DNA of 64,000 nucleotides. Origin: a virus. Under the pieces are notes generated by a model. That model did not search any database. It was not told the DNA's origin and was given only the letters and a program-made list of their open reading frames with translations. The DNA lies in IMG/VR virus record IMGVR_UViG_3300012000_000002, positions 1-64,000 of that record; one strand, given 5' to 3'. Shown piece after piece: positions 5,578 through 32,757 of this stretch (position 1 is the first letter of the stretch; each line of letters starts with the position of its first letter). Both the position numbers and the translations under genes were made by a program.

Positions 5578-6192
5578 ATGAAAACAAAGCTTTTTGATTA
5601 TATCTTTGAAAACACACACGAACTTGAAGAAGCTATGGGAATAAGCACAGGTGGTGCAAGTTTAGCTTCTTCTGGTCAAATCGGTGGTGGTATGCAACTT
5701 CCTCTTGGAATGAAACCGGGACAAAAGGTAAAGAAACGCCGCAAAGGAAAAGTTATTTCAGCTTCTCCAGCGGTTCATAATCCCGATGCTTTGGCGTTGC
5801 AAGAAATGCCTCATGTGGCGTATGATGATTACGAGCCAAAAGATTTTGAAGTAGAAAAGCTTGATATTTCTCCAGAGGAAAAAAGAAAGCTTATGCTAGC
5901 GTTTCGTGGTAATGGTGTTCTTTGTCATGGTCCAGATGGTGAATGGATGGTATGCACCTTGGATGATGTACGCAAAGCAACAAAACAAGAGATTAATGAT
6001 GAAAGCTTTCCTCGTTTAGATGTTACTTTAGAATACGAGCATGACATACAAGAAAGCTTTGGAGCAATGCATAAACCGGATTTCAAGGGACCAGCTATGC
6101 CGGGACTATGGAAAGGTTTAGAAGATCCAGAAGAACCTGTAAAAACAGGTTCACCAGAGCTTGATAAGGATATCGAAGACTACTCTGAATAG
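5578..6192 (+). CDS. hypothetical protein with capsid-leader-like N terminus
   Basis: I do not recognise a family. The N terminus MKTKLFDYIFENTHEL resembles the short leaders of the neighbouring minus-strand genes (aromatic-rich stretch ending F-E). It is followed by a glycine-rich segment, a basic patch PGQKVKKRRKGKV near residue 50, then an acidic and proline-rich C-terminal half ending in a negatively charged tail. A compact domain may lie around residues 105-135 (GNGVLCHGPDGEWMV). Its 3' end overlaps the convergent paralogue gene by 13 bases, and both proteins end in Y-S-E. Function unknown; a virion or packaged protein is an inference from the leader. Confidence 0.6.
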   Translation: MKTKLFDYIFENTHELEEAMGISTGGASLASSGQIGGGMQLPLGMKPGQKVKKRRKGKVISASPAVHNPDALALQEMPHVAYDDYEPKDFEVEKLDISPEEKRKLMLAFRGNGVLCHGPDGEWMVCTLDDVRKATKQEINDESFPRLDVTLEYEHDIQESFGAMHKPDFKGPAMPGLWKGLEDPEEPVKTGSPELDKDIEDYSE

Positions 6193-7025
6193 CTTGCAGG
6201 CCCACCGTACAGTCTACGAAAAAACTTAGATCCTGCCATTTCAATCAGCCGAGCCGCATCTTTTTCTGTGAACTTTGGATATTTTTCAACTAAAAGCCGA
6301 ACCAGTTTATTACCGTTGTCAAACGTTTCTTGGATTTTTGTGTCATGAGACGTTGCTTTATAAGCCCAAAGCCAACCATAAGATGCTGGGTTTAGTTTAC
6401 GCTCTTGCAAATAATCAAGAAATACTTGCTCGTCCTGCACATCAATGCTTTCGTCTGAAAGTTGCTCGACATATTGATTTAAATGATGCGCTGCCGGACC
6501 CTCAAACACACGATCAAGTAAATGCATGGCGAGCCAATTGCCAAGCCATTTACGCTGGTATACACCCTTGTCTGATAATTCATACATTTTCTGCCAAACA
6601 AATTGACTTGCTGGTTTAAGAGAATCGTCGCTCATTAACCATTCACCTGTTTCATACATAACCATTTGATAAGCTAACGGACCAAAGCTTGCAACACCGG
6701 CAGATTTGTTTACACTCCACAAATCATCTTGGGCATGAGAGTAATCAATCATGCCAGCTATAGCTCGTCGAGCAATACGTTTTGCTATTTCGTCTTCTGT
6801 TGCTGGATAATCTTCTAGACGGACGTTTAGATTCCAACCGCTTTCTTCCAACGTTTTTAGAACACTAAACACTCTATCCGTTGAAACCAAAACAATGTTG
6901 TGTTCATTTCGGTTGCTGAGTAAATTTTGATAATGATCTTTGCTTATAGCTGCAACTCCTTTATCAAGAGCTTCTGTTGCTGTACGGGCTCCTTCATTGA
7001 TGTATATGATTGGATATAGTTTCAT
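6180..7025 (-). CDS. paralogue family member 1, leader MKLYPIIYINE (putative packaged protein)
   Basis: First of four tandem paralogues (6180-9403). The N terminus MKLYPIIYINE/GARTA looks like a T4 capsid-targeting leader with an x-x-E/G cleavage site. The shared core is here VASFGPLAYQMVMYETGEWL, then SDDSLKPASQFVWQKMYELS and the ending FFRRLYGGPASYSE. The block G-P-L-x-Y...L-x-P-x-S-x-x-V-W resembles GNAT motif A plus the following strand and helix, but this is only a weak inference. The start is fixed by GGAG eight bases upstream. The downstream end overlaps the convergent gene. Probable role: an internal head protein ejected with the DNA. Confidence 0.7.
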   Translation of the reverse strand: MKLYPIIYINEGARTATEALDKGVAAISKDHYQNLLSNRNEHNIVLVSTDRVFSVLKTLEESGWNLNVRLEDYPATEDEIAKRIARRAIAGMIDYSHAQDDLWSVNKSAGVASFGPLAYQMVMYETGEWLMSDDSLKPASQFVWQKMYELSDKGVYQRKWLGNWLAMHLLDRVFEGPAAHHLNQYVEQLSDESIDVQDEQVFLDYLQERKLNPASYGWLWAYKATSHDTKIQETFDNGNKLVRLLVEKYPKFTEKDAARLIEMAGSKFFRRLYGGPASYSE

Positions 7026-7030
7026 AATTC

Positions 7031-7804
7031 TTACTCCGAATAACTTGCTTCTGAATCATACATTTTATCCCAAAAAGCTTTTGCTGCTTTTGCGATTGTT
7101 TCTACTATTGTTTCGGTTGAATACTCGTTTTCTTGTGCTATATTTTCAATTGTTTCTTTGCCTTTAACATACAAAGGTTTTACGTTTATAGGAGAAGAAA
7201 GGTTGTAAGCCCAAAGAAATCCATAGTCTTCTGGTTTTAAACCATGCACTTCCAACCAATCAAAAAAATCTTCTTCATTTTCGTAGCCAACGTTGTTGTC
7301 GGTGACATCTTGAATATATTTTTCTAAATCTTGTTCTATATCCGCTCGATTAACTAGAAGATCAAAGTTCCAATCTGCAAGCCATTTACGTTCGTAAATT
7401 CCTTTGTTTGAAAACTCATACATTTTCTTCCAAACGTGTTTGCTCGCAGGTTTAAGAGAAGTATCACTCATTAACCAATTACGGTTGCCGATATGTTGCA
7501 TAACGATTTGATAAGCTAATGGGCCATAGTCTAAAATACCAGCACTTGCATTTACCTTATATAAATCGAAATCTTCATTATCGAAATCAATTAAACCAAC
7601 AATTCCGTCTTTGTTGGATATGATATCTACAACTTGTGATAAGTCGTGGCCCAAAGCAAACGCATTGGTTAATGTTTTTACATTAAACAATACTATGGTA
7701 TCGCCCCACATATTTGCGCTTATAACAGCAACACCTTCCGAAGTAGCTTGAGCGGGGGTTTTTGCTGCTTCGTTTATGTATAATAGCGGATATAATTTCA
7801 TCAT
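7031..7804 (-). CDS. paralogue family member 2, leader MKLYPLLYINE (putative packaged protein)
   Basis: Close relative of the gene at 6180-7025: leader MKLYPLLYINE/AAKTP, core GILDYGPLAYQIVMQ, SDTSLKPASKHVWKKMYEFS, a matching late segment GFLWAYNLSS, and C terminus FWDKMYDSEASYSE. The start region reads ATGATG; the first ATG overlaps the TGA of the upstream paralogue, and the second (7801) begins the leader proper, with AGGA upstream. It is shorter in the N-terminal region than its sisters and acidic overall. The whole set is probably cotranscribed from upstream of 9765. Confidence 0.7.
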   Translation of the reverse strand: MMKLYPLLYINEAAKTPAQATSEGVAVISANMWGDTIVLFNVKTLTNAFALGHDLSQVVDIISNKDGIVGLIDFDNEDFDLYKVNASAGILDYGPLAYQIVMQHIGNRNWLMSDTSLKPASKHVWKKMYEFSNKGIYERKWLADWNFDLLVNRADIEQDLEKYIQDVTDNNVGYENEEDFFDWLEVHGLKPEDYGFLWAYNLSSPINVKPLYVKGKETIENIAQENEYSTETIVETIAKAAKAFWDKMYDSEASYSE

Positions 7805-8616
7805 TGTTTCCTATGCCTTTTATATAACCGGTCAAATTGCTTGCCATAAGCACCCATTAACACATTGGTAATATCTAGTTTATTTACGTTAAAGTTATCG
7901 GCCAATTCTTCGATAGCTGCATCACCAGCTTCGATCAGTTTCGATACGTCTTTTGATCGTCCACCAGAACGACGATAAGCATAAAACGGTCCAAGTTTTT
8001 CGTTGTTTTCAGAGTTTAGCTTTTGAACAAAGTCAACATCGAATTCTGTTTCTGTTATCGGAGTTTCGTTTTCAATTTTATTCAACACATTCCGTATGTT
8101 TTTTTGCTCAAACATATCTGACACATTCCAACTGGTTATAAGTTCATCTGAACCCCAGTTTCCAATCCAGCTATGTTCAACATCAGAACGAGTATACATT
8201 ACGTTCCAAACTCTACGTGAATCTGGAGTAAGAGTAAAATCAGAACGTATATAATTGGGATATATTGAAGCCATTACCATTTCGTATATTAAAGGCCCAT
8301 ATTTTTGTACTGCGGCAGAAGTAAGAACCATCCAAAGATCGTCTCTTTTTGGCGTATCTTTTCGTGTAGCCATTACAGAACCAACAATTACACGGTTTCC
8401 AAAATACGTTTCTAACCAATCAAGAACTTCTTCCTTTGAATTCAATCTGTCTTGATGTTTTGAAAAGTATGACTCAGTTGCTTGTATACAACGCTCGGGA
8501 CTGAACAATATAAAAACTAGTTCTTCGCTGCTTTTCCAAATGTATAAACCTAAACCAGCTTTTAAAGCTTCTTTAGAGGTTTTAGCAGCTTCGTATAATA
8601 TGTTGGTTAGTTTCAT
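7801..8616 (-). CDS. paralogue family member 3, leader MKLTNILYE (putative packaged protein)
   Basis: Same family: leader MKLTNILYE/AAKTSKEALKAG, core AVQKYGPLIYEMVMAS, SDFTLTPDSRRVWNVMYTRS and ending KQFDRLYKRHRKQ. An upstream in-frame ATG at 8670 would add 18 residues overlapping the preceding gene, but the leader comparison fixes the start at 8616, one base after the TAA of the upstream paralogue. The C terminus is basic and lacks the A-S-Y-S-E tail of members 1 and 2. It is the most diverged of the four, which argues for functional divergence rather than simple dosage. Confidence 0.7.
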   Translation of the reverse strand: MKLTNILYEAAKTSKEALKAGLGLYIWKSSEELVFILFSPERCIQATESYFSKHQDRLNSKEEVLDWLETYFGNRVIVGSVMATRKDTPKRDDLWMVLTSAAVQKYGPLIYEMVMASIYPNYIRSDFTLTPDSRRVWNVMYTRSDVEHSWIGNWGSDELITSWNVSDMFEQKNIRNVLNKIENETPITETEFDVDFVQKLNSENNEKLGPFYAYRRSGGRSKDVSKLIEAGDAAIEELADNFNVNKLDITNVLMGAYGKQFDRLYKRHRKQ

Positions 8617-8617
8617 T

Positions 8618-9403
8618 TTAATCACTTGCGCTTGAGCCATACAAACGGTCGAATAGTTTTGCGCCTGCATTTTTCAACAATTGTTTTGCATCTTTTTCGT
8701 TGATATTATATTCATCGCCTAAAACTTTTATAATATTTTCACCACTGTTAAACATATCAACAATTAATGGATCGTGAGATGTTTTGCTATAACACCAAAA
8801 GTTTCCAACGATATGCGGTTCAATGTTCGTGTTTGTTTTCAACCAATCCAAAAATGCTTCTTCGGTTGGTGCAATTCGTTCTCTTTCAAGTAAATCGATA
8901 TAATCATAAAATGTGGTGCGAGGCAAGTTTTTAGGAATTCTTTCATATATTTCTCTGTATGAATATAACCCAAGGAACTTGCGTTCGTAAACTCCTCGTT
9001 CAGAAAGTTCAAACATTTTTTCCCAAACTCTTTGGCTGGCTGGTTTTAAACTTGTGTCGCTTGCAAGCCAAGCTGGGCTAATCACATACATCACAATTTG
9101 ATAAGCCAAAGGGCCAAAAGAGCTAACAGCACCGCTGCTGCTAATTTGAAACAAATCATCAAATCTTTGATTTTTCAAATAAGCAATAGTGCCCACAAGA
9201 GCTCTGTTGGCTGCACTGCGGGATGCATCAGTTGGTTTTGAATTTCTGGGTCGAGCAGCTTTTAAAAGTCGCTCGTTGTCGAACAAAGTTATGTGATTGA
9301 AATATGTGTCTTTTGGACCTCTTGTTATAACAGCCGATACGCCTTTTGATAAAGCTTCTTCTGCCGTTCTTGCCCCTTCGTATACAATTGGATATAGTTT
9401 CAT
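8618..9403 (-). CDS. paralogue family member 4, leader MKLYPIVYE (putative packaged protein)
   Basis: Family member with leader MKLYPIVYE/GARTAEEALSKG, core AVSSFGPLAYQIVMYV, SDTSLKPASQRVWEKMFELS and C terminus KLFDRLYGSSASD. The start at 9403 is preceded by AAGGA and overlaps the stop of the DUF192 gene (ATGA), so it is translationally coupled. The sequence after the leader (GARTA-x-EAL-x-KGV) is nearly identical to member 1, marking these two as the closest pair. Function is unknown; the leader suggests packaging into the prohead and cleavage by the prohead protease. Confidence 0.7.
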   Translation of the reverse strand: MKLYPIVYEGARTAEEALSKGVSAVITRGPKDTYFNHITLFDNERLLKAARPRNSKPTDASRSAANRALVGTIAYLKNQRFDDLFQISSSGAVSSFGPLAYQIVMYVISPAWLASDTSLKPASQRVWEKMFELSERGVYERKFLGLYSYREIYERIPKNLPRTTFYDYIDLLERERIAPTEEAFLDWLKTNTNIEPHIVGNFWCYSKTSHDPLIVDMFNSGENIIKVLGDEYNINEKDAKQLLKNAGAKLFDRLYGSSASD

Positions 9404-9765
9404 AGTTTCCTTATAACTAGTTTTTCGTTGCCTTTTAAACCCATATCTTTGCACCAACCACCTCTTACCTCAACAACGTATTTGACGGGCTTAGAAAAGC
9501 TTCTAGAGGCCGTAGACATAGCTTCTAAATTCAGTATCTCAACAAGACGGTTGTGCTTGTCAAAACCCATGCAGTCAATATCAAAAGGAACGGTATGCAT
9601 CCAATAAGATTGTGGATGTTCATGTTCATGAACAAAAAGCATTCCATAATAATCGTTGGGAGGTTGATTCCATCCCATAAAGCCTTTGGAACGTAAATGT
9701 GGTTTGTTTAAAATCTTTAATGCTAGTGGAACATAACCAATAGAAGAGAAGCAATACATAACCAT
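9400..9765 (-). CDS. DUF192 family protein
   Basis: The sequence follows the DUF192 (COG1430) pattern: KGFMGW near the N terminus, YYGMLFVHEHEHPQSYWMHT (G-M-L-F, acidic residues, then W-M-x-x-T), the P-F-D-I-D strand, VEILNLEA, and VKYVVEVRGGWC followed by K-G-N-E. The family forms a small beta barrel of unknown biochemical role and is found in bacteria, archaea and phages. The start at 9765 (MVMYCF) is chosen because longer forms run into the divergent plus-strand gene. The stop overlaps the next paralogue start, so it heads the operon 9765 to 6180. Confidence 0.75.
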   Translation of the reverse strand: MVMYCFSSIGYVPLALKILNKPHLRSKGFMGWNQPPNDYYGMLFVHEHEHPQSYWMHTVPFDIDCMGFDKHNRLVEILNLEAMSTASRSFSKPVKYVVEVRGGWCKDMGLKGNEKLVIRKL

Positions 9766-9783
9766 ATATATTTCTTTCAAATC

Positions 9784-10116
9784 ATGTTCAACTTTTTCAA
9801 ACGCAATAAACCTCAAGCAAAAACCAAGTCAATCCAACAACAACTTTTAGAGTTGCCTCTTGGAAGCTTTGTTGTTTTATCATTAAACCCTGATATATGC
9901 GCTCAACATATGTTGAAAGGCACCAATAGGTTTGATGAAGTTGTTATATCAACCAACAAGCTTAAAGGATTGGTTAAAGCTGTTTATGTGGCTGATGTAA
10001 CAAACTATGTTTATGTAGAAGTTATTGGATTGGTTGTTAATGATGGAGTTGCAACACGAAAAGAATATGTCGTGATGCAAGGAGAAATATTGTCAATCAA
10101 AGTATGCGACGTTTGA
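9784..10116 (+). CDS. hypothetical small protein
   Basis: 110 residues of unknown family. The N terminus MFNFFKRNK is amphipathic and basic, as in proteins that touch a membrane surface. The rest is rich in valine-containing strands (FVVLSLNP, VKAVYVADVTNYVYVEVIG), suggesting a small beta fold. The gene is divergent from the DUF192 operon, with only 18 bases between the starts, so the two promoters must overlap. Its 3' end overlaps the convergent HAD-type gene by 20 bases. No Shine-Dalgarno sequence is evident before the ATG. Confidence 0.6.
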   Translation: MFNFFKRNKPQAKTKSIQQQLLELPLGSFVVLSLNPDICAQHMLKGTNRFDEVVISTNKLKGLVKAVYVADVTNYVYVEVIGLVVNDGVATRKEYVVMQGEILSIKVCDV

Positions 10117-11176
10117 TTCCAGCCATTCTTTGCCAACGATCTAAGTCAAAACCCAAAGATTCAGCCAATGGTTGAGCTGCTTGTTCTTCTTTTTTCTTTT
10201 TGGCACCGCTTGGTGGATATTTTTCTTTTGGAGTATCTGCACTAGCTGTACCGGCTGGGTGAGGATGCTTACTTGGATCAGCGAAGCCACCGGGACCATA
10301 CAAAAATACTTCTGCATCAACGTCTTTTAATGCAGCACGCACATCATCAATGTTTTTGGGATCGTCGTCATAAAAGTGTATTTCATCTGGTTGTTCTTCT
10401 GGTTTGCGTGCATCAAAGTATGTTTTTTTGATTTGTTTACCTTTGTTGCCGCCACCCATACCTTTTACTGGTTGACCAGCTTTGGTGCTCAAGGTTATGC
10501 CTTGATCAGACATGAACTTTGCCAAATCTGTTTCAACAGAAGGTGGATGCTCTTTACCACCAAAATCTTTTGGATTTGATCGTTCTCCAGATTTAATAGC
10601 ACTTTCACCAGAACGTGCAGTAATGATTTGAGTTTCGGCACCGGGAGGAGCGTTCTTCACACGGTTCAACGTTGAATCGATTGGTTCAGCATTTTTAGCT
10701 GTAGAAGAAGGGCTATAGTCCGCAACAAGAACAAGCTTACCGGCTTGTTCTTGATTTCCCGGTGCGGGCTTGTCGGGTGCTATAAGGTTTATATCTGCAA
10801 GCTTACGAGCTTTTGTTAAACCAGCGGAGTTAACATAAACGGCGAATCCTTCTACTCCATCTGGTTGTTCGATTGAACTTCCTTTTGGCCCTTTAAGAAG
10901 TTCTTTTTGCAAACCGTTTTGGGTTACCCAAGCTTGTGCTTCTTGCGCTGTTTTCCAAACCGGTGATCCATCTTTATACATCATGATACCGTTAGAGTCT
11001 GATGTTACACCAAGAGTATCATCAAAGTCAAAGATGTGAGCTTGTTTGTCTGGTGCTGCGTCACCGGGAATCGGTTCGCCCTCATCTTGCTGAACAACAC
11101 CTTTTCTTTCGGATTGTTTTTCGTCTTGCTCAAACAACCAACGATAAACGATTTGGTCTTTTTTGTCTCTTAACAT
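10097..11176 (-). CDS. HAD superfamily phosphatase-like protein with LFEQ leader
   Basis: HAD motifs appear in order: HIFDFDDTLGVT (D-x-D-x-T nucleophile) near residue 50, TQIITARSG (motif II, threonine) near residue 185, and IHFYDDDPKNIDDV (acidic motif with DD-x3-N) near residue 270. This is the layout of phage polynucleotide-phosphatase-like and acid-phosphatase-like HAD proteins. The N terminus MLRDKKDQIVYRWLFEQDE shares the Y-x-W-L-F-E-Q block with the ParB-like gene next door and the gene at 50142. The C-terminal end AGIKRRIL also echoes that neighbour (PGIRRRW). AGGAGCT precedes the ATG. The substrate is unknown; packaging is inferred from the leader. Confidence 0.75.
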   Translation of the reverse strand: MLRDKKDQIVYRWLFEQDEKQSERKGVVQQDEGEPIPGDAAPDKQAHIFDFDDTLGVTSDSNGIMMYKDGSPVWKTAQEAQAWVTQNGLQKELLKGPKGSSIEQPDGVEGFAVYVNSAGLTKARKLADINLIAPDKPAPGNQEQAGKLVLVADYSPSSTAKNAEPIDSTLNRVKNAPPGAETQIITARSGESAIKSGERSNPKDFGGKEHPPSVETDLAKFMSDQGITLSTKAGQPVKGMGGGNKGKQIKKTYFDARKPEEQPDEIHFYDDDPKNIDDVRAALKDVDAEVFLYGPGGFADPSKHPHPAGTASADTPKEKYPPSGAKKKKEEQAAQPLAESLGFDLDRWQRMAGIKRRIL

Positions 11177-11200
11177 TGTTGTGAGCTCCTGTTTTAACTA

Positions 11201-12391
11201 TCACCAACGACGACGAATGCCGGGAAGATGGATTTTGCGAATACGGCTTTCTGTTTGAATATCAAAACCGGGTTTTGCGTTAATATCGCCGCTTTGCAAA
11301 GCCGTGCCCAATCCTTCTGGGCCGGGGCCACCATCACCAAGACCAGTTTGAGGCATGATTGGTCTAGGAAACTTTCCTGCTGGTGGTAATGCTTTGCAGT
11401 TTGTTGCAAGAGTTGCAGCAGCTTCTGACCAACCTTGTACATAATCGTTTGAAACCGTACCAACTTTAACTTCTAGAAGGGCACCTCTGGCATCACCTTC
11501 GGCTGCTCCGCTTCGCATTCCACCAAACTCGCCTGCCTCTGGTGGTACCGCTCCCGGTGTTGATGCAGTGTCTGGTTGAGTGTTTGAGTCAGCACCTAGA
11601 GCAACCCGTTTCAATACATCTTTGGCCCAAGGTTGTTTTGAAGCAAGTTGTTTTGCAAACATTATGCTCGTTGGTTTGGCAGTATTTTCCAGTTTTCCTT
11701 TAAGTTGTTCAAAAACTTCCGTGCCCATAAACAATGGACCAGAAACAAATTTTGTTATAATGTCTTCAAGAGACATGGCATATATGTTCATGCCTTTTTT
11801 AACACCTTGAGTTGGTACATTTTGCTTTGTAACCGCAATCGCTGCTTGAGTCATCTTAAGAGCCATTTCTGGGTCTGGTATATCAATGTCAATGCAAGCC
11901 AACTGGATTTGTGGGTTGAAAACCATTGCTTGTGACCAACGGTGGTGACCATCGATAACATATTTTCCACCGGCTGTGATGATTGGGTCGCCGCCCTTCC
12001 AAGCCCCACCAGCATAAAAATTTGCTATAAGACTGGGGTTTTTAAAAGAAAACGCAACTGAGTTCGAAAGATCGATTTCGCTTTGCGTTGGTTGCAAAGC
12101 TGATCCTGCGATTGTCGCAGGTTTAACAGCTACGGATTCGTCTGTGGGGTTGCCGTCTTTTTTGCCAGCAGCCAAGAATGCATGAAGTTTTGGATCTTTT
12201 GCAACTTTTTTTAATTCTTGAACAAACTGTTCATATGGCATTGACCAAAGCTTTTGAATTTTTTCTGCGGTTAATGGATCGGGAGCACTAGCATCTTTAG
12301 CAGCATCTCCACCACCAGCAGCAGCAGCCTTTTCTTCTTGTTCAAACAACCAGTTATACAAGTCACGATCAGATCTGATAGATTTTCTCAT
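11201..12391 (-). CDS. ParB/sulfiredoxin-like domain protein with LFEQ leader
   Basis: The recognisable part is AGGKYVIDGHHRWSQAMVF near residue 140, the ParB-like nuclease/sulfiredoxin fold signature (strand, D-G-x-H-R, helix), followed by IQLACIDID. It may bind or hydrolyse nucleotides or act as a DNA-linked switch; the partner is unknown. The leader MRKSIRSDRDLYNWLFEQEE matches the gene downstream and the one at 50142. An alanine/glycine-rich linker follows, and the C terminus ends SRIRKIHLPGIRRRW. The start has AGGAG upstream. The gene is divergent from 12437, with a possible extended -10 TGATACTCT in the gap. Confidence 0.7.
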   Translation of the reverse strand: MRKSIRSDRDLYNWLFEQEEKAAAAGGGDAAKDASAPDPLTAEKIQKLWSMPYEQFVQELKKVAKDPKLHAFLAAGKKDGNPTDESVAVKPATIAGSALQPTQSEIDLSNSVAFSFKNPSLIANFYAGGAWKGGDPIITAGGKYVIDGHHRWSQAMVFNPQIQLACIDIDIPDPEMALKMTQAAIAVTKQNVPTQGVKKGMNIYAMSLEDIITKFVSGPLFMGTEVFEQLKGKLENTAKPTSIMFAKQLASKQPWAKDVLKRVALGADSNTQPDTASTPGAVPPEAGEFGGMRSGAAEGDARGALLEVKVGTVSNDYVQGWSEAAATLATNCKALPPAGKFPRPIMPQTGLGDGGPGPEGLGTALQSGDINAKPGFDIQTESRIRKIHLPGIRRRW

Positions 12392-12436
12392 TTTAGTTCT
12401 CCTATTATTTTAGAGTATCACATGATATATATTATT

Positions 12437-12727
12437 ATGGTTAACGATTTGTTGCGTGAACTTATACAACTTCTTGTTTTAGAAGCCGCATTCAATACAA
12501 AGCTTCTTAAGAAGATGGGTTACAAATATGTTGGCCGCAATAAACGTATTGCTTCAGATACTTTTATTCACGCTAAAGACGATAACAATCCTTCTTACCA
12601 TAAAACCTTGAGCAAACGTATAAATAAAAACTTAAGTAAAGGTGGCTACTATCGTAGCAAAAAACACGATACCCTTAAAGACCCACCTGCTATGGGCGTA
12701 TCTTGGACAAAAGGAGAAAAAGGTTAA
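12437..12727 (+). CDS. small basic protein with leader MVNDLLRELIQLLVLE
   Basis: 96 residues, strongly basic, without a recognised family. The N terminus is an amphipathic helix ending LLVLE/AA, another possible prohead-protease site (L-x-E/A). The remainder (KKMGYKYVGRNKR, then repeated lysine-rich segments and SKGGYYRSKKHD) looks like a nucleic-acid-binding tail. No Shine-Dalgarno is visible; the TGATATATA just upstream could be a -10 element placing the start of the message near the ATG. The gene is followed after three bases by the plus-strand member of the paralogue family. A packaged DNA-binding protein is an inference. Confidence 0.55.
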   Translation: MVNDLLRELIQLLVLEAAFNTKLLKKMGYKYVGRNKRIASDTFIHAKDDNNPSYHKTLSKRINKNLSKGGYYRSKKHDTLKDPPAMGVSWTKGEKG

Positions 12728-12730
12728 ACC

Positions 12731-13540
12731 ATGCCAGCAAAAAAAGTTAAAGACTTAATAGAGTTCAACAACAGCGTTCCCGACGACTTCAAAGTTAAAG
12801 TAATGTTGGGAGGAAGTCAAATTCGTTTGGCTGCTTCGTTTATAAACAACAAAGGTAAAACAATTTATCAACAGGATGATATTCGTAAATCATATTACGG
12901 AAAGTCTTTTGAAAATTTAAAAGTCGAAAAAGGAACTGAATCTGCTATAGAAAGATACGAAGACCCAACAGATAAACCTATGTTTCCTTGGGGTTCAGCT
13001 AGTTGCAAACCAAACAATGATAAACATAAATACAAATGCAACAACGCTTGGTTTATCAGTCTTACTGAAGTTGCTAAAGGTTATGGCCCAATGCTTTATG
13101 ATTGCTTGATTGCCAAGCTGGGTGAATATGGTTTTGGTTTAACTGCTGATAGAGGCATGGTTTCTGCAACAGCGGCAGCAGTTTGGAGCGCATATCTTAC
13201 TGATCGTCCAGATGTAAAAAGAAAAAAACTGGACTTGGATAATTCAACACCAGAAACTGAAGACGATTGTTATGCTAAACATTCTTCTATTCCTAGTTGG
13301 AATACTTGGTTAGCAGACCCAAAAAAAGGTTTGTTGCAAAGTGACGAAGAACACGAAAAAGAAGTAGAAAAAAGAAAAATCATGCGTGTGGCTGTTAACT
13401 TTGCTTATTTTGACGACGGAATCGTCACGCTTAATGAATTAAGCCAAGCCGGACTTTTGGTTGATCAAACGTTTGGATTGAATGAGAACTATGTTGTTCG
13501 ACGTTTGTATGAAAGCTTTCTCAGAGATTTAAAGCTTTGA
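12731..13540 (+). CDS. paralogue family member 5 (no leader), GNAT-like core
   Basis: The central part matches the tandem minus-strand family at 6180-9403: [19 protein letters not shown], then [20 protein letters not shown] and the ending [13 protein letters not shown]. In this copy the K-G-Y-G-P-M-L-Y-D stretch looks most like GNAT motif A, with the following strand and helix; this remains an inference because no acceptor domain is recognised. The N terminus [14 protein letters not shown] lacks the MKLYP leader, so this member may stay outside the capsid. The gene has a weak ribosome site and forms a pair with 12437. Confidence 0.65.
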
Positions 13541-13565
13541 CATTAATTTTCTTTGTTGTTATGCT
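13537..13565 (+). promoter_or_regulatory. sigma70-type promoter of thyA, probably leaderless
   Basis: TTGACA (13537-13542), 17-base spacer ending TGT, then TATGCT (13560-13565). The thyA ATG begins only six bases after the -10 hexamer, where transcription should start, and no Shine-Dalgarno exists. The message is therefore probably leaderless. Confidence 0.75.
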
Positions 13566-13571
13566 TTAAGC

Positions 13572-14369
13572 ATGACATATCATCACGTTGACCAAACGTA
13601 TTTCGAATTAATCAATGATGTTCTCACTAATGGTGTAGAAAAAACTGATCGCACTGGTACAGGAACAATCTCGGTATTCGGTAGACAAGTTCGTTATGAC
13701 TTGTCTTTAGGATTTCCTATCCTAACCTCTAAACGAGTTCACTGGAAGTCTGTTGTTGGAGAACTGCTATGGTTCCTCAAAGGTGATACCAATATTAAGT
13801 GGTTAAAGGAGAACGGTATTTCTATCTGGGATGAATGGGCAGACAAGGATGGAAACCTTGGACCTGTTTATGGTAAACAATGGAGAGATTGGAACGGTGT
13901 TGATCAGATCAAACAACTGATTCAACAGATCAAGACTAGTCCAGACTCACGAAGACTTATTGTATCTGCATGGAACGTTGGAGATATTCCTAACATGGCT
14001 CTTGCTCCATGCCATACGATGTTCCAATTCTATGTGGTAAATGGTAAACTTAGTTGCCAGCTATATCAACGCAGCGGGGATCTTGGATTGGGAATTCCCT
14101 TTAATGTTGCTTCATATGCGCTTCTAACACATATGATTGCTCAGGTGTGTGGACTAGAGGTTGGAGATTTTGTGCATACCTTTGGTGACTTGCACATTTA
14201 TTCAAACCACGTTGAAGCGTTGAAACAACAGTTGCATAGAACACCATATCCAATGCCTAGATTGATGTTAGCTAAGACTGTTACGGATATTGATGGATTC
14301 GATTTTGGCAAGGTGACATTGGATGGTTACCAACATCACCCGTCGATTAAGTTGCCTGTGGCTGTTTAA
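13572..14369 (+). CDS. thyA: thymidylate synthase
   Basis: Makes dTMP from dUMP with methylenetetrahydrofolate. Family blocks are clear: [15 protein letters not shown] (phosphate-binding arginine), [14 protein letters not shown], the nucleophile in [11 protein letters not shown] (Cys147), [17 protein letters not shown] and [12 protein letters not shown]. At 265 residues it matches E. coli ThyA (264). It works with folA downstream (15453), which regenerates tetrahydrofolate. The gene begins six bases after a strong -10 element with no ribosome site. Its last four bases overlap the convergent leader-bearing gene at 14366. Confidence 0.97.
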
Positions 14370-14749
14370 GACTCTTGAGCTTTCTTTGCCATATCTGTTA
14401 ATGTAGAGACTTGAGATTTAATCGTTTCTACATCTTTGGTGAGAGCAGAGGAATCATTGCCACCAGATGTGGTGGTTCCTGTAGTTGATATCGTTCCCGG
14501 TCCTTTGGGAACCGTAGTTGCTGCTGCTGTTTGATCTGCTCCTGTAGTTGAACGTGACTTTGTGGGTTCTTGCTTTCTCTCCCCAGAGGATTTTTGAATA
14601 ACGTTGATATCTTTTTTCATTTGATCAACGTCTTTGGTTATAGGTTCCAATGCTGTTTTAACAGCATCAGCAACATCTTTCCCAATATCAACGTTCATAC
14701 TTGCGTCGTCTGCTTCGAAAAGAATAGGATAAAGCTTAACGGTTTTCAT
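14366..14749 (-). CDS. low-complexity protein with leader [12 protein letters not shown]
   Basis: 127 residues. The N terminus [17 protein letters not shown] repeats the KLYPI block of the paralogue family and ends in a potential L-F-E/A cleavage site. After a short coiled-coil-like segment ([20 protein letters not shown]) comes a threonine/serine/glycine/lysine-rich stretch of about 50 residues, then a second heptad-like helix. No enzyme motif is visible. It is isolated from the other leader genes, lying between thyA and clpP on the opposite strand. A packaged, possibly disordered internal head protein is the best guess. Confidence 0.6.
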
Positions 14750-20263: not shown

Positions 20264-22213
20264 TCACAAGAAAGTAAATAAGATATTCGAAAGAGAACCA
20301 GAAAAGTTGTAGGGTACTGTGATTTTAAGATATACCCTATAGTTTGAACTGACTATGTTCTTGACACCAATTGTAAGACCCCAATCTGTGTTTAAAGCTC
20401 TTCCTACTCCGAAAGAAGCAGCTCTACCACCGTTGCCATCGTTATATTGTCCGCTTATAAAATCATCGTATGCACATAACCAACCTGTTTGTGTGGGAGC
20501 TTTAAATTCCACCTTCATTTGATTAGCTGCACTAAATATGTCAGATACGTGAACAATAACCGCACCTGAGCCGTTTATACGCAAAACAAAGTTTGCTGCC
20601 GCATCCGTGCCAATAAACATACGATAATATGTTCTGTCACCAGTACCCATTCCTGTGCTGTAATCAACATTACCTACAGGACCGTTTGCTATAGCTCCCC
20701 AGTTAACTGAACCTCGTTTCAACTTAGCTTCTACAACTTGTAACCCATCATTGTATCCTACCGTAGAAGCTTCAACAAGTGAAATACTACTATCCCATGA
20801 ACCTGTAACTAATGCTGTGCTATTAAAATCAGAATTTGAAGGTAAACGATAAAGTTCTGAAGTAAACGTTTCATTTATGTTTGTAGAAGTATTTGCTACA
20901 TTATCAAGTAATATGTGGCTTACAGCAACTCCAGAACTTTGAACTGATGGGCCGAATACTGTTGGAATTGTTGTTCGAATAGAAACCGATCCATCAAGCA
21001 AACGAATGCCTGACGTTTGAAACAAAACGTTTTTAAAAACTTCGAAAAGTTTTGTTTGATCTCCACCAGCAGCAGGAAGATATTCAGCAGCTACAGATTG
21101 TAAACCATAGTTTGTTGTATATTGAACTAAGTTATGACTGTATACACTTCCATCGTAAACGTTTGAACCTATAACAGAATATTCAAATGATCCACCTGTG
21201 TAATACGCAACACCAGACAAATACTTTGTACCAGTTAAACTCAATCCAGTTATTTGTTCATTGTTATAAACAATGTTTTCACCTTCACCATCGATAAACC
21301 ATTGAATTTCATTTGTTGTGTGGCTGGTACCATTGATTTGATGTACAACCTTCATGGTGTTATAACCACGACGTTGGTGAGAAGCTCCTATCTTCCATAA
21401 ACCGGTTCGATATTTAAAACCCTCGAAAGCTATACCTGTTGTTGGAAACAATACGCTTTGTGTTGTTGATAAAACAAAACCGGTTTCTGAATCGTTAACT
21501 GCGCCTTCTGTTGCTAAGTTTACGGTGCGGACAATTGAATCATTGAGATACAAGTTTAATGTTCCTGTATCTCCTTGATTTAAGGAACCAGTTGAATAAG
21601 CTGCGAATGGCGAACCCGGTCCTATACCAACGTTGTCTGCTAGTTTTCCAGACAGTGTAGAGCCACTTTGAAAAATACCAAAATTGTTTGTAGCTGGTGC
21701 ATACAAATCATCTACGCTTTTTGAAGGAACTGGAAAATGCTCATTATATGGATGAGCATCATCTACCATTAATCTTCCTGTATTCCCTGCGTTGTTAGAA
21801 GAAAGGGAAGATAGATAAGGAGGTCTAGATGGAGCAAGAGCTTTTAAAAGGTTGTTTATTTCTTTGATAGCGTGACCAATTGTTGTGGTTGCTGTCCATG
21901 TTTCAAACAATCCTTCTTGATAAGATAAATCTGGAAGGTTCTGTCCAAGGGGTAAACCTTGTAACGCAACAACCGTTCCAGATAATGTTAGTCCACCACC
22001 AACAACCGATCTTTTATTTTCTGAGCCAGATATATAGAAAAAGGTATCTGCTCCAATGCTTCCTGTGTCAAATGTTGATGCAATGTTTCCAGCTAACGGT
22101 GGCTCACCATCGTTCTCGTATCCATAAAGTAATATGGACGCACTGGTACCTGTAGAACCAGAAGCAATGATCTTGTTTGTGCGTATTTGGGAAGCTCTAA
22201 AATCATATGCCAT
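20264..22213 (-). CDS. tail fibre/adhesin with shared anchor domain (copy A)
   Basis: 649 residues. The N terminus MAYDFRASQIRTNKIIASGS, followed by GSIGADTFFYISGSE, is the anchor shared with the genes at 26408 and 32758. The remainder is a long beta-rich segment without repeats (QWFIDGEGENIVYNN, YLSGVAYYTGGSFEYSV, DRTYYRMFIG) ending in a hydrophobic strand FSGSLSNILFTFL. This C-terminal segment differs from the other two fibres, so it probably sets a different receptor specificity. I see no catalytic motif. The start is divergent from dnaJ, with a palindrome TTCATATATATGAA (22261-22274) in the gap. Confidence 0.7.
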   Translation of the reverse strand: MAYDFRASQIRTNKIIASGSTGTSASILLYGYENDGEPPLAGNIASTFDTGSIGADTFFYISGSENKRSVVGGGLTLSGTVVALQGLPLGQNLPDLSYQEGLFETWTATTTIGHAIKEINNLLKALAPSRPPYLSSLSSNNAGNTGRLMVDDAHPYNEHFPVPSKSVDDLYAPATNNFGIFQSGSTLSGKLADNVGIGPGSPFAAYSTGSLNQGDTGTLNLYLNDSIVRTVNLATEGAVNDSETGFVLSTTQSVLFPTTGIAFEGFKYRTGLWKIGASHQRRGYNTMKVVHQINGTSHTTNEIQWFIDGEGENIVYNNEQITGLSLTGTKYLSGVAYYTGGSFEYSVIGSNVYDGSVYSHNLVQYTTNYGLQSVAAEYLPAAGGDQTKLFEVFKNVLFQTSGIRLLDGSVSIRTTIPTVFGPSVQSSGVAVSHILLDNVANTSTNINETFTSELYRLPSNSDFNSTALVTGSWDSSISLVEASTVGYNDGLQVVEAKLKRGSVNWGAIANGPVGNVDYSTGMGTGDRTYYRMFIGTDAAANFVLRINGSGAVIVHVSDIFSAANQMKVEFKAPTQTGWLCAYDDFISGQYNDGNGGRAASFGVGRALNTDWGLTIGVKNIVSSNYRVYLKITVPYNFSGSLSNILFTFL

Positions 22214-22285
22214 AACGAGAATTCTTTAAGTTTTAAAACCAACGGTTAGCCAGTATTCTATTCATATATATGAACTTACTGTACA

Positions 22286-23263
22286 ATGGAAAACGATAGC
22301 ATGAACTTTTACGATATATTAGGTTTAAACCAAAATTGTTCTCAAGAAGAAGTTAAAGCTGCTTTTAGAAGCAAAGCCATGCAATACCATCCAGATCGTA
22401 ATCCCAACAACAAACAAGCAGAAGAAACGTTTAAAAAAATAAACTCTGCATATGAAGTTCTTGGTGATCCTCAAAAGCGTATGCAATACGATCAACAACA
22501 AAATCCAAAACGCTCTGGTTTTTTTCGCAGCCAAAACTTTACTAGCCCCGAAGAAATGTTCACCAGCTTGTTTGGTAATTTTGCAACTGTTCAAAACATC
22601 AACATACCCAGACACCAAACAAACATTGCTCTTACTTTAGCAGAAACACTTAAAAATCAAGAAAAAACAATTGCTATAGCACTCAAAAACAAATGCTCGA
22701 AATGTCTTGGCACTGCTATCGGCAAAGGAGAACGTTGCAAAACCTGTCAAGGTAATGGTTGCAATTTTTGTGGTGGTTTAGGTGTTTGCTATCCTAGATG
22801 TGATTTGTGTAATGGAGCAGGATTTTCTACCGAACAAAAAGAAGTCAAGCTTGATATTCCAAAAGGATTGTTCACAAAAACTCAGTTAAACATCAACACA
22901 CCATATGGTATGGTGTTGGTCAACATAACAGTAGATTATCCATCGAACATCAAGCTTGGTGCTGGCGGTAGATTGATAATGCATGTGCCTATTCCATATC
23001 ATATTGCTGTGTTAGGTGGTGTGCATCCCGTTGAAACAATTGAAGGTGGTACCGTTAACGTTAGATTTCCTCCGCTTACAAAAGTGGATCAACTCATTAA
23101 AATCAAAGGCAAAGGTTTATATTCTGGCCCTAATGCATCAGAAAGAAACGATCTTTTCTTATCGACTTATATTGCAATGCCAGAAAACATATCTGACGAA
23201 CATAAAACAATAGTTGAGCAACTTGCCAATCTATACAACAGAGAGGAATCAAAACATGAGTGA
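22286..23263 (+). CDS. DnaJ/Hsp40-like co-chaperone
   Basis: Residues 6-70 form a J domain (YDILGLNQNCSQEEVKAAFR) with the catalytic HPD in MQYHPDRNP. After a short G/F-like linker comes a compact zinc region with four CxxC motifs (CSKCLG, CKTCQGNG, CNFCGGLGVC, CDLCNGAG), then the C-terminal peptide-binding beta domains (LDIPKGLFTKTQLNI, HPVETIEGGTVNVRFPPLT). It is a complete type-I DnaJ at 325 residues, with the zinc repeats tightened compared with E. coli (376). It would stimulate a host DnaK. An alternative ATG at 22301 (MNFYDILGL) may be the true start, since TACAAT overlaps the first ATG. Confidence 0.9.
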   Translation: MENDSMNFYDILGLNQNCSQEEVKAAFRSKAMQYHPDRNPNNKQAEETFKKINSAYEVLGDPQKRMQYDQQQNPKRSGFFRSQNFTSPEEMFTSLFGNFATVQNINIPRHQTNIALTLAETLKNQEKTIAIALKNKCSKCLGTAIGKGERCKTCQGNGCNFCGGLGVCYPRCDLCNGAGFSTEQKEVKLDIPKGLFTKTQLNINTPYGMVLVNITVDYPSNIKLGAGGRLIMHVPIPYHIAVLGGVHPVETIEGGTVNVRFPPLTKVDQLIKIKGKGLYSGPNASERNDLFLSTYIAMPENISDEHKTIVEQLANLYNREESKHE

Positions 23264-23507
23264 CACACAACGTTACAACCTTAGCGACGAATTCATTGCA
23301 CAAGTAGCAAAGCTACTTCAATTGGCTATGCTTACAGGAACAAGCATCCATGACAATCTTCGTTTGGTGCAAGTTATACCATCTGCCGAAGGCAAACTAG
23401 TTCTAACAGATGAATACAAAAAAAGCTTCGAAGCCAACATCCAAAAGATGCTGGCCGAAGCTGAAGATATCAAGGATGATATGCGATCTACAATCGCTCA
23501 AGCTTGA
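23256..23507 (+). CDS. hypothetical small protein
   Basis: 83 residues, largely helical (DEFIAQVAKLLQLAMLTGTS and SFEANIQKMLAEAEDIKDDM). The ATG has GAGAGGA upstream and overlaps the dnaJ stop by eight bases, so the two are coupled. A pattern of this type (a helix pair around VQVIPSAEGKLVLT) is seen in small phage regulators, but I do not recognise the family. Confidence 0.6.
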   Translation: MSDTQRYNLSDEFIAQVAKLLQLAMLTGTSIHDNLRLVQVIPSAEGKLVLTDEYKKSFEANIQKMLAEAEDIKDDMRSTIAQA

Positions 23508-23510
23508 TTG

Positions 23511-23957
23511 TTAGCCTTTTGCTTTACGCTTCATTGCAACCTTTTTACCAACCTTCTCGGGCTCTTTAGGAGCCTCTACAACAGTTTCTTGCTTGACCGG
23601 AGTCGATTCTACAACTGGAGCTTCCGGCACGGTAGGAGCAACCACGGTGGTTGGTGCTACCTCAACGGTAGGTTCTTCACTCTTCGTAGGTAGATGATAA
23701 ATCATTTCTACCTGAGATCGAAGAATCTGTACTAGCGCATCCAAAATCTTGGTTATAACTCTGCCAAGATAATACCCAAAAAACACACCAATGAAAATAA
23801 TACCAAGACGGTTTGCTACGGATTCAGCATGAAGTGGAATAATGCTGGCAGTACCTAGAACCGCACCAATACACACCGAAATATATGGTAGGATATTACT
23901 GTAATATTGAAGACTTAGAATCGATTTGTTAAGACGGTTAATGTCGCTTTTATCCAT
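23511..23957 (-). CDS. membrane protein with two TM segments and Pro/Glu/Val tail
   Basis: Two hydrophobic segments (ILPYISVCIGAVLGTASIIP near residue 20 and LGIIFIGVFFGYYLGRVI near residue 55) are followed by an amphipathic helix. A disordered tail of about 55 residues, rich in V, E, P and T (VEVAPTTVVAPTVPEAP), ends in a basic KKVAMKRKAKG. A holin-like role is possible, but the long tail and the position away from the lysis genes make it uncertain; a membrane anchor is an alternative. GAGG precedes the ATG. The gene converges on dnaJ-23256. Confidence 0.6.
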   Translation of the reverse strand: MDKSDINRLNKSILSLQYYSNILPYISVCIGAVLGTASIIPLHAESVANRLGIIFIGVFFGYYLGRVITKILDALVQILRSQVEMIYHLPTKSEEPTVEVAPTTVVAPTVPEAPVVESTPVKQETVVEAPKEPEKVGKKVAMKRKAKG

Positions 23958-23996
23958 TTTTACCTCGCAATGTTAAATACGTTTCGCTATCAGCAA

Positions 23997-25100
23997 TTAT
24001 GCCCAGTAGTTATACGACCGGCGGCCACCCCGAGCAACAAAACTTGGCTTATAAGTGTTCTTGACAGGAGCAGGAGTCTCACCACCATCGCACTCAAGAA
24101 TATCGTAGTGCTCGCCAAAAAGCTTGACAATGCTATCCTTGTGCTGCTTGTTGATAGCCCACAGCTTCGATGCAGCATCATAAGAGCGTTCCCTAGCAGG
24201 GATGTTCTTGATCTCGTCAATAAGCCTACGAGTAACAGACTTGTCCCAATCAAACTTAAGCGTAAAATCGGTTGAACGATTAATGATGTGAGCTACAGGC
24301 TTTCCGGTAAGCTTGCGCTGCTCTGCAACCTTGACAGGGTTAGCAGCAATCCAAGCTTTGCACTGTTCAACAATCTCGTCAACCTTGCCATCAAAGCAAG
24401 GCCAAAACTCCATACAAGCAGCGATAAACTTCTCGTATCGAGCAGCGGGAGCCTCAAAAGGCCCACCACGCTTGCGAGGAATAACGATACCGGGAATCAC
24501 ACGCATAGCGTTGAAGCCAGCCTTGTTACTAGAGCCGGTAAGAAACAACTTGCCATTGTCAAACTTAAGCTCTGCTTCACCAGTAGAACTCTCACCAGAA
24601 AGAACACCAGCCAATCCGATAAAGCCGAGATGCTTCACAATTTGAATAAGATGATGCTTGTTATCACGATCCATCGCAAACGAAAGCATGAAATCGATAA
24701 CCTTGGCAATCTGCCTACAATCTTCACCAGAAAAATGAAACGTGAACGTTCCAGTGTTGCTGGCAGCGTTCATAGCAGATTCACTCTTTTCAAAGAGAAA
24801 ATCGTTGAGTGCAGTCCACACAGAACGCACAGCAGCGGGAAGCATATCGACCTTCACTCCGAGTGCATGAGCAGTAGCAAGGGTGAAGTTTGCAGGAATG
24901 GTCTTTGCAAAAAGGTGCGTATCCTTCTTTGCACAAATAGGACCGATACCACGCTCCCACGATGCAGGATCGGTAAGAGGCTGATTACAACGAGAGCAAT
25001 GACGCACATCGTTGCAAGAGCGAGTAATACCTCCGAGCGAGGCAACAAGCTTCGCAATCTTGCTTGAGGAGTTAGCAACCTTGGTGTTATTCTTCTTCAT
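23997..25100 (-). CDS. zinc-finger and HARP-like domain protein
   Basis: The N-terminal region has a zinc site HCSRCNQPLTDPAS followed by GIGPICAKK (C-x2-C...G-x-G-x-x-C), as in DUF6011-type phage proteins. The C-terminal part (TDFTLKFDWDKSVTRRL, then RSYDAASKLWAIN and VKLFGEHYDI) resembles the HARP domain of SNF2-family annealing helicases, here without an ATPase. It probably binds DNA junctions or single strands (inference). The gene is distinctly GC-rich for this genome (35 of 60 bases in the row at 24421). It begins six bases after a strong extended -10 box, so its mRNA is probably leaderless. Confidence 0.65.
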   Translation of the reverse strand: MKKNNTKVANSSSKIAKLVASLGGITRSCNDVRHCSRCNQPLTDPASWERGIGPICAKKDTHLFAKTIPANFTLATAHALGVKVDMLPAAVRSVWTALNDFLFEKSESAMNAASNTGTFTFHFSGEDCRQIAKVIDFMLSFAMDRDNKHHLIQIVKHLGFIGLAGVLSGESSTGEAELKFDNGKLFLTGSSNKAGFNAMRVIPGIVIPRKRGGPFEAPAARYEKFIAACMEFWPCFDGKVDEIVEQCKAWIAANPVKVAEQRKLTGKPVAHIINRSTDFTLKFDWDKSVTRRLIDEIKNIPARERSYDAASKLWAINKQHKDSIVKLFGEHYDILECDGGETPAPVKNTYKPSFVARGGRRSYNYWA

Positions 25101-25106
25101 ACTATT

Positions 25107-25135
25107 AGAATATCATACAGCCATGAATATCTAAA
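25107..25135 (-). promoter_or_regulatory. TTTAGA-N17-TATTCT promoter, leaderless
   Basis: On the minus strand TTTAGA (25135-25130), 17-base spacer ending TGA (extended -10), then TATTCT (25112-25107). The ATG at 25100 follows after exactly six bases and there is no ribosome site. The same arrangement occurs upstream of 53155. Confidence 0.8.
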
Positions 25136-25175
25136 GGTATTTTTTTCTTTTTATTTCCCTGCATTTTAAAGGGGT

Positions 25176-26411
25176 TTATAGCACTTGTTCTAAGTTGATG
25201 TTCCAAAAGTTACCTTTAGCGGTACGATGACGTTTAAAACCTAGATCAACTAGTTTCTTGGCAAGTAACTGTTGCTTGTAGTTGCTAACATTCGTTAAGC
25301 CTTGTGCTTTAATCCATATTAGTCTTGTTTCTATAACTTGATCCAAGGTGCAACGATGCAGTTTCACATCAGATGGTTGCAGCAAAGAAAAAAACTTGTC
25401 ATCCAGCGTTTGTAGTTGTTGAAGTAAGTTTGCTGGAGCAGCACCATTCTTTTTGTTCTTCTTTAACCATGTAACGTATAGTTGATTAACTTTTTCATGT
25501 GAGTTGTTATAAGCTGGATATTTCATAACCGACTCAACAATGGTAGCAATCTCATTTAAAAACGTTTCTGGGTTCTCTACACGTTTAATGTATGTTCGTG
25601 CGTTTTGTTCAAGTTCTGCCTTTAAACAGCCTTTAGCACGATCTGAAGACAACAATCTATGCATTACAACATTTCTTATTCCATTAGGGATAAGCATTGT
25701 TTGCATCATTGTTCTGATGACGGGTACAGGTTCTTGAACCCATGTTTTAAACTGGTTGGTTGGCGGGGATTTAACTCTGGGTTTAACCTTTGCGGTTGTT
25801 TTTGGTTGAGGCTTTGCAAGCAACGTTGCAAGAACGTTTTGTGGTAGATCAGCGATATCAACGTTGTTGATTTTAGCATACCAACCTTTTTTATGTTTGC
25901 TTGGAGGAATTACAACATAACCATCTGTTCCTCTTACGTCTACCTTATCCGCAAGAAGTGACACAGAGTTTTTAATTGGATACTTTGACCAAAACCAAAA
26001 ATGATGACCACCTGATCCTGTTCTATATGAGAACGTATTTGGAAGTGTTTTGATGAATGGATGTTCTTGGGCATCCACATCAATAACTACTAGATATTTG
26101 TTTGTGACTTTTGATAGTCTTCCTGTGGCAAGACCAAAATTCATCTTGTTATAAGCTTCGAACCAATCAAGGATTTTATCTGGTTTGTTTGAAGCAATGA
26201 TTTTCCAGTTGTAGCGAAACAAAGGATGTTTGCCGGGAGCAGAACAATCTTCTTTACCGCATGAACAAACACCATTTTCCCTAATGGAATAAAGAGGTAG
26301 AATATATAGTTCATTTTTCAATACAATATCAGTGATTGTTTCAGCGTTAGACTGTTCCATGCTATCAAAGCTAGCAGATGAAAAACAATCTATAAACTGA
26401 TATGATATCAT
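25176..26411 (-). CDS. archaeo-eukaryotic-type primase-polymerase (Prim-Pol)
   Basis: Residues 30-190 match the bifunctional DNA primase/polymerase N-terminal family: cysteine cluster CSCGKEDCSAPGKHP, catalytic LVVIDVDAQEH (D-x-D), the SGGHHFWFW motif and VDVRGTDGYVVIPPSKHKKG. The C-terminal 200 residues are basic and contain a proline/lysine linker and a helical domain of unknown role. It probably primes DNA synthesis for the helicase at 741. The ATG at 26411 overlaps the stop of the upstream fibre (ATGA), but no ribosome site is seen; an internal ATG at 26360 (MEQSNAET), preceded by a possible TGCTAGCTT -10, may be the true start. Confidence 0.85.
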   Translation of the reverse strand: MISYQFIDCFSSASFDSMEQSNAETITDIVLKNELYILPLYSIRENGVCSCGKEDCSAPGKHPLFRYNWKIIASNKPDKILDWFEAYNKMNFGLATGRLSKVTNKYLVVIDVDAQEHPFIKTLPNTFSYRTGSGGHHFWFWSKYPIKNSVSLLADKVDVRGTDGYVVIPPSKHKKGWYAKINNVDIADLPQNVLATLLAKPQPKTTAKVKPRVKSPPTNQFKTWVQEPVPVIRTMMQTMLIPNGIRNVVMHRLLSSDRAKGCLKAELEQNARTYIKRVENPETFLNEIATIVESVMKYPAYNNSHEKVNQLYVTWLKKNKKNGAAPANLLQQLQTLDDKFFSLLQPSDVKLHRCTLDQVIETRLIWIKAQGLTNVSNYKQQLLAKKLVDLGFKRHRTAKGNFWNINLEQVL

Positions 26412-28600: not shown

Positions 28601-28624
28601 GTATTACCTTTAAAAGATATATAG

Positions 28625-29683: not shown

Positions 29684-29709
29684 ATCGATATATACCAATC
29701 AATTAACGT

Positions 29710-30231: not shown

Positions 30232-30249
30232 TTAAAACCCGCTTCATCG

Positions 30250-32670: not shown

Positions 32671-32694
32671 AACGGATATATATCGCTAAAAAAA

Positions 32695-32730: not shown

Positions 32731-32757
32731 AAAGTTAATAGTTGTTACTAGCTAGAG

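Follow-up and report, generated by a model that had tools for sequence, protein, structure and literature searches.

Does a set of short N-terminal peptides, each ending in glutamate, mark a group of packaged proteins in an uncultured phage? The question is raised by a 64,000-base stretch (the window; positions 1-64000 in G000, a virus record of 119,039 bases), in which a number of otherwise different genes begin with such peptides. Comparison with T4, whose internal proteins carry a capsid-targeting sequence (CTS) cut by the prohead protease gp21, points to a positive answer. The leaders are very probably capsid-targeting propeptides of a T4-type head-assembly system; packaging and cleavage of the proteins that bear them appear likely, and injection with the DNA is plausible by analogy. 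The initial annotation had proposed all of these steps. Packaging directed by the leaders, with a gp21-like protease cutting them, proved to be well supported by comparison (a protease, matching sites, leader swaps, and an AlphaFold model).

Leader sequences and their frequency

Open reading frames (ORFs) were listed piecewise across the entire record, and 155 genes entered the motif counts. All ten leaders that had been named lie in open frames at the coordinates assigned to them. The ending first proposed for them, (L/I/V)-(F/Y)-x-E, was wrong: eight end in [ILV][FYL]-E (ILYE, IVYE, ILFE, YIFE, VLFE, LLYE, ILFE, and LVLE) and two in Y-I-N-E, and the common rule is [LIVM]-x-E, with a small or polar residue usually next. 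This is the T4 gp21-type rule. The early list was incomplete, as leaders at 11176 (IVYRWLFE↓Q, the arrow marking the predicted cut) and 12391 (LYNWLFE↓Q), within the same 5578-14749 stretch, had been overlooked. Further leaders are found beyond that stretch at 98361, 98089, and 107763, and an amphipathic class (class B; MRITVKQLKALIRE↓A and similar) occurs at 71089, 71319, 94341, 118052, 51709, and 58043. The leaders at 7025, 7801, 8616, and 9403 sit on four tandem paralogues (25-40% identity), and therefore represent one family rather than independent examples; the remaining listed leaders are on unrelated proteins.

Motif enrichment was evaluated at residues 8-18 (the leader zone) against segments inside the same proteins, using the Fisher test. 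The motif [ILVM]xE[AGSTNQ] was present in 31 of the 155 genes versus 10.9 expected (p = 4e-7), and the strict form, [ILV][FYW]E, in 10 of 155 versus 2.3 expected (p = 3e-4). The former test yielded 13 occurrences versus 4.6 expected in the T4 head region, which served as a positive control, and 8 versus 8.4 in SPO1, a large myovirus used as a control and not searched for the S77 protease family. We also compared N-terminal 22-mers between otherwise non-homologous proteins, with no motif imposed. At a score of at least 30, 38 pairs were found versus 6-12 with interior and 6-13 with shuffled N-terminal controls; at a score of at least 40, there were 6 pairs versus 0-1 in controls. No clear excess was seen in SPO1 (12 versus 3-10 interior and 3-6 shuffled). 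Two groups were prominent in this N-terminal sharing, the aromatic leaders and the amphipathic ones (MRITVKQLKALIREA and similar). The observation is thereby confirmed as real and beyond chance.

The leader-bearing genes of the window are the following:

5578-6192, plus strand: leader MKTKLFDYIFE↓N (5578-5610) on a 204-amino-acid protein
6180-7025, minus strand: leader MKLYPIIYINE↓G (6993-7025); GNAT-like paralogue 1
7031-7801, minus strand: leader MKLYPLLYINE↓A (7769-7801); GNAT-like paralogue 2
7801-8616, minus strand: leader MKLTNILYE↓A (8590-8616); GNAT-like paralogue 3
8618-9403, minus strand: leader MKLYPIVYE↓G (9377-9403); GNAT-like paralogue 4
10097-11176, minus strand: leader MLRDKKDQIVYRWLFE↓Q (11129-11176); HAD-motif protein (FDFDDTL)
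11201-12391, minus strand: leader MRKSIRSDRDLYNWLFE↓Q (12341-12391); ParB-like DGHHRW motif; phrog_2859 (unknown function), E 7e-5; ParB-like, E 0.31
12437-12727, plus strand: leader-like MVNDLLRELIQLLVLE↓A (12437-12484); lacks a visible ribosome-binding site
12731-13540, plus strand: divergent GNAT-like protein with a weak leader, possibly a partner of the 12437 ORF
14366-14749, minus strand: leader (14714-14749); coiled-coil protein with no relation to the paralogues apart from a common KLYPI
45791-46855, plus strand: leader MILLEDLLYE↓E (45791-45820); unknown fold, D...EIK motif
50142-50867, minus strand: leader MLYSKRQRLNEFKLVRE↓Q (50817-50867), and an internal LYRWLFE↓Q; a low-complexity product whose gene is conserved beside that of the superoxide dismutase
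50867-51709, minus strand: Fe/Mn superoxide dismutase with a 46-amino-acid pro-region (51572-51709) that contains KVIQE↓A and ends in KILQE↓A
51741-51965, minus strand: leader MKLFDVLFE↓T (51939-51965); small acidic protein adjoining the superoxide dismutase
56402-56914, minus strand: possible leader MEDDDDILFE↓G (56885-56914), C-terminal DDTLYE; acidic, the weakest member
57735-58043, minus strand: amphipathic leader MNNKLRNQLKAAIKE↓A (57999-58043); junction retained in relative G005 (KQLVKE↓A)

For most starts, there is either a ribosome-binding-like sequence or a tight gene junction in the 9403-6180 array; no obvious ribosome-binding sequence was seen at 8616, 12437, 14749, 51965, and 56914. 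The KLYPI of 9403 and that of 14749 are encoded by different codons, which argues against a recent DNA copy. In the 50142 protein, the leader junction is present in most homologues. Searches of Pfam, PHROGs, NCBIfam, and PADLOC left most of the cargo without a significant match, the exceptions being the superoxide dismutase, weak HAD/polynucleotide-kinase links, and phrog_2859 for 11201.

Some other features were noted. The phage has three HAD-motif proteins (record positions 69474-70708; 10097-11176 in the window), each with a leader ending in x-E, and the first two match phrog_415 (polynucleotide kinase; 6e-7 and 2e-4). The alike acidic ends of the 56402-56914 protein (DDDDILFE and DDTLYE) recall Alt, which is cut at both ends by gp21 (PMC5694885). 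The product of 108971-109786 in the record combines a HEFTH (metallopeptidase-like) motif with a leader-like N terminus, MKLSDIIEAKILQRLAE↓S. Large proteins encoded at 20264-35856 of the window have a common N terminus (MAYDFRA.Q...) and repeated AGNPFIVAG, and are likely modular fibre proteins.

Protease, matching cut sites, and exchanged leaders

A search for a gp21-like prohead protease, suggested along with the initial leader list, was successful. A Peptidase_S77 (gp21 family) match is present at 79733-80155 of the record (E 9e-29), in a gp21 homologue spanning 79628-80239, between the portal-like and major-capsid genes, and the gp21/S77 family was found in the records of 26 of 31 relatives. 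The capsid protein (74096-76048) matches gp23 proteins of T4-superfamily phages. Its best isolate matches include RM378, Flavobacterium phage immuto, and a Microcystis phage, with cyanophages lower, and its sequence appears to resemble those of Far-T4 phages. A GroEL-like chaperonin was recognized by eye near the head genes (87234-88964); immuto, too, encodes GroEL and GroES.

The site type is common to capsid protein, scaffold, and cargo. The capsid protein has MLNE↓S. In ca. 70 aligned relatives, the glutamate of this region is invariant, with ...L(L/I)(K/R)E↓(S/A)xSLSTGG or MLNE↓SLSLSTGG around it, and the region aligns by eye with FLTE↓A of T4 gp23. The scaffold (76111-78354) begins with MSTPLYQEALIE↓A, similar to MLKEQLIAE↓A of T4 gp22. 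The T4 record contains the same kind of ending at the cut positions of ipII and ipIII (MKTYQEFIAE↓A), gp22, and gp24 (MAKINELLRE↓S); in T4, an Asp at position 10 prevents processing. In addition to its leader, the 5578 protein contains a stretch, LEEAMGISTGGASLASSGQIGG (residues 16-37; 5623-5688), that resembles the capsid cleavage site plus mature N-terminal arm, LNE↓SLSLSTGGASLASSGQVAG (68% over 22 amino acids, E 3e-5).

Leaders were found to differ between homologous cargo proteins and to end at a comparable cut site. In this phage, the GNAT-like domain is preceded by MKLYPIVYE↓GARTAEEA. GNAT-like homologues in relative G005 have other leaders (MTTQLYKLLFEEHAVDIEE↓SAKT and MKNVSLSELIYPVDE↓AAKR) with the junction aligned. 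Homologues in other viral contigs were found via a degenerate DNA pattern for GLGPLLYD, the eight-member alignment being too divergent for that scan, and there the same domain follows MRITEHRLRQLIRETLLVE↓AALTPKKAAE (L163), MIRELIREMLLTE↓AMYTPERAAE (L159), or MKITRLQLRRLIEGVINE↓M (L164). With leaders stripped, the mature parts were still homologous (E 2e-11, 2e-7, and 3e-7, for a notional 20,000 sequences); since the aligned stretch of the profile is the central GPLxY region, the junction match itself was made by eye. A further protein, L165 (MTNFKEWLISE↓AA, which recalls T4 MKTYQEFIAE↓A), was connected to the family by tblastn (8e-6) and was not recovered by the profile. The L163 and L165 records contain both gp21 and gp23; L159 and L164 are fragments with neither.

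In the AlphaFold model of paralogue 3 (8616), residues 1-9 are disordered (pLDDT ~40), and the chain is ordered directly after the glutamate (~87). A Foldseek search of the PDB placed GNAT enzymes near the top, none of them significant (E at least 0.2), while the paralogues had no Pfam match and a profile search of the PDB was empty. The GNAT-like label given to these proteins at the outset is thus weak, and a nuclease-like nature of the 45791 protein could not be shown (AlphaFold pLDDT 31).

A superoxide dismutase with a pro-region, and the scaffold tail as a possible tag

The superoxide dismutase (SOD) was identified by matches to PF02777 (E 3e-15) and 1coj (1e-24), and nine relatives have homologues, among them each of the eight records of at least 137 kb that were searched. 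The pro-region varies freely in length and sequence, but in all ten sequences it closes with an LxE site, and the SOD domain then starts with A or S (LQE↓A, LNE↓A, LNE↓A, LDE↓A, LNE↓S, LDE↓A, LDE↓A, LVE↓S, LEE↓A, and LNE↓A). The metal-site positions H, H, D, and H, assigned as ligands by eye, are retained in all of them. In the four relatives checked, the SOD neighbour is a leader-bearing gene homologous to 50142. The SOD is a candidate virion enzyme. It had no matches among 50,697 isolate phage records, and tblastn searches of isolate phages with the GNAT-like proteins and one class-B leader likewise matched nothing.

The scaffold ends in a C-terminal tail, RWxxLAGI, in ~45 relatives (RWQILAGM in this phage). 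Among 605,000 residues of predicted proteins, RWxxLAGI occurs 48 times at the C terminus (nearly all in scaffolds), seven times at the N terminus, and twice in the interior; per residue, the N-terminal rate is ~29 times that of the interior. The N-terminal cases are leaders, e.g., MAFTKNRFQKLAGILKE↓S and MNFSSNRWKQLAGVLKE↓G, and the relatives have a leader class resembling the scaffold's own tail (NRFQKLAGILKE). Another N-terminal case is MKKQILSEQFRRMQKLAGIITE↓S, on immuto26A_188 of the isolated Flavobacterium phage immuto. A 265-amino-acid protein of L040 combines an amphipathic leader with VERWQRLAGIVK at the opposite end, and in the window the 10097 protein has an aromatic leader together with C-terminal RWQRMAGI (10115-10141), like the scaffold tail RWQILAGM. 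The scaffold-tail tags and the capsid-like stretch of the 5578 protein may imitate core and shell contacts. The leader and LAGI strings were not found in the literature searched. In the Far-T4 literature searched, superoxide is not mentioned; one account lacks the terms internal protein, prohead, and scaffold, and another lacks capsid targeting.

Two more N-terminal patterns were seen in relatives. In immuto (L166-L168), the start (F)(D/N)L(K/R)xFLxENKLTxN...LLxE recurs in several proteins and may be one more leader class (FDLKKFLVENKLT...LLE↓), and in relative G011 (245 kb; L112-L124) an (I/V)PG(E/N)LYR motif is present at the N termini of many otherwise different small proteins.

Proposed mechanism, rival explanations, and known systems

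We propose that each protein would be made with a 9-20-residue N-terminal peptide (about 46 residues in the SOD) that binds the prohead core, that the phage gp21-type serine protease would then cut after [L/I/V/M]-x-E within the prohead, and that the mature protein would stay within the head, the majority of such proteins then probably being ejected along with the DNA. The interchangeable leaders come in several classes, one short and aromatic (MKLYPIVYE), one amphipathic (MRITVKQLKALIRE), and one, seen in relatives, that is scaffold-tail-like. In T4, where CTS mapping and cargo fusions have been published, residues 4 and 7 of the CTS target the protein and residues 8 and 10 control processing (PMC9026906); by analogy, binding of the leaders to the core and their removal by gp21 are to be expected. 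Injection is suggested by analogy with T4 Alt and internal proteins and with DarB of phage P1, which has a 30-residue N-terminal packaging signal (PMC9024508). We infer core binding and the cargo functions and, from T4, P1, and giant phages, also cleavage, virion retention, and injection. More broadly, interchangeable cleavable leaders, some scaffold-tail-like, may form a general protein-packaging code, with a conserved SOD and a fast-changing enzyme-like set that would guard the incoming genome and disarm the host; we consider the case for this wider view to be evenly balanced.

Several points weigh against capsid targeting by cleavable leaders. Support for virion presence and N-terminal processing is entirely comparative, and the gp21 role of the S77 protein is suggested by a family match, catalytic residues aside. 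The [LIVM]xE motif is short, and chance would account for ~11 of the 31 genes that bear it, so that not every listed leader need be real, and it is uncertain which of the weaker ones are; the leaders at 56914, 12437, and 12731 are either weak or have no clear start signal. The aromatic leaders are like the T4 leader only by eye, in the site and an MKxY start. Finally, the simple-motif excess is small or absent in the more distant relatives G018, G020, and immuto, where either other leader forms are in use or the system is reduced.

A possible, though on balance doubtful, alternative is that the leaders do target the head and are cleaved, while their bearers are parts of the prohead core or shell (like T4 gp67, gp68, and gp24) that shape the head or are degraded, rather than injected. 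The 79091 gene adjoins the protease, the 51965, 14749, and 98361 proteins are small, acidic, or coiled-coil, and the 5578 protein has the capsid-protein arm; small acidic or coiled-coil bearers may indeed be core parts instead. However, the SOD, with its conserved ligand residues, and the HAD-motif and GNAT-like proteins have folded enzyme-like domains, and most bearers differ between relatives, unlike structural parts. It is improbable that the peptides are uncleaved docking or localisation helices, e.g., for membrane or oligomer contacts: class-B leaders are amphipathic and cleavage is deduced from sequence rather than observed, but the glutamate at the cut is the conserved element in the SOD (10 of 10) and in orthologous junctions, it agrees with the capsid-protein site, and the AlphaFold fold starts directly after it. 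An over-reading of a short common motif among many small ORFs is highly improbable, for although one paralogue family bears four leaders and several starts lack ribosome-binding sites, the excess over interior segments (p = 4e-7) is absent in SPO1 and the motif-free excess is between non-homologous pairs.

Capsid targeting by cleavable leaders bears on the ejection proteins of uncultured phages, which homology searches hardly ever detect. With a leader grammar tied to the phage's own capsid cut site, probable packaged proteins would become readable from sequence throughout a group of aquatic phages that is abundant. It is also suggested that the CTS may work by imitating the scaffold tail, and a virion-borne SOD is predicted; Flavobacterium phage immuto is an isolate in which these matters are testable.

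Like T4 IPI, IPII, IPIII, and Alt, the proteins have a short N-terminal leader ending in [LI]-x-E before a small residue; the genome encodes a gp21/S77 protease and a gp23-type capsid protein, and the cargo genes lie outside the head module and vary between relatives. By eye, MKLYPIIYINE may echo the MKxY start and [FY]IxE end of T4 MKTYQEFIAE, to which MTNFKEWLISE of L165 can also be compared. The leaders are modular in the manner of a T4-type CTS, with one type on unrelated proteins and different types on one protein family. Unlike T4, there are many more candidate cargo proteins and at least two leader classes per genome, homologous cargo has different leaders across phages, and scaffold-tail-like leaders and a SOD cargo are found. 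A chlorovirus packages a Cu-Zn superoxide dismutase in its virion; a virus delivering SOD in its particle is the likeness, whereas the SOD family is different, the host is an alga, and there is no CTS-type leader.

In the P1 Dar system, an N-terminal peptide is sufficient for capsid targeting, and Dar proteins are believed to enter the cell (PMC9024508), but P1 has a different prohead protease and a 30-residue signal, and a leader family on many cargos has not been reported there. In SPN3US and phiKZ (gp245/gp175), a gp21-superfamily protease cuts head proteins after x-E and paralogues share N-terminal peptides (PMC5694885, PMC10052503); these giant phages differ in A/S-x-E specificity and mostly long propeptides. 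The CTS and gp21 processing are already known; the novelty lies in a swappable leader set with several classes, in leaders that resemble the scaffold tail, and in a pro-SOD that is conserved.

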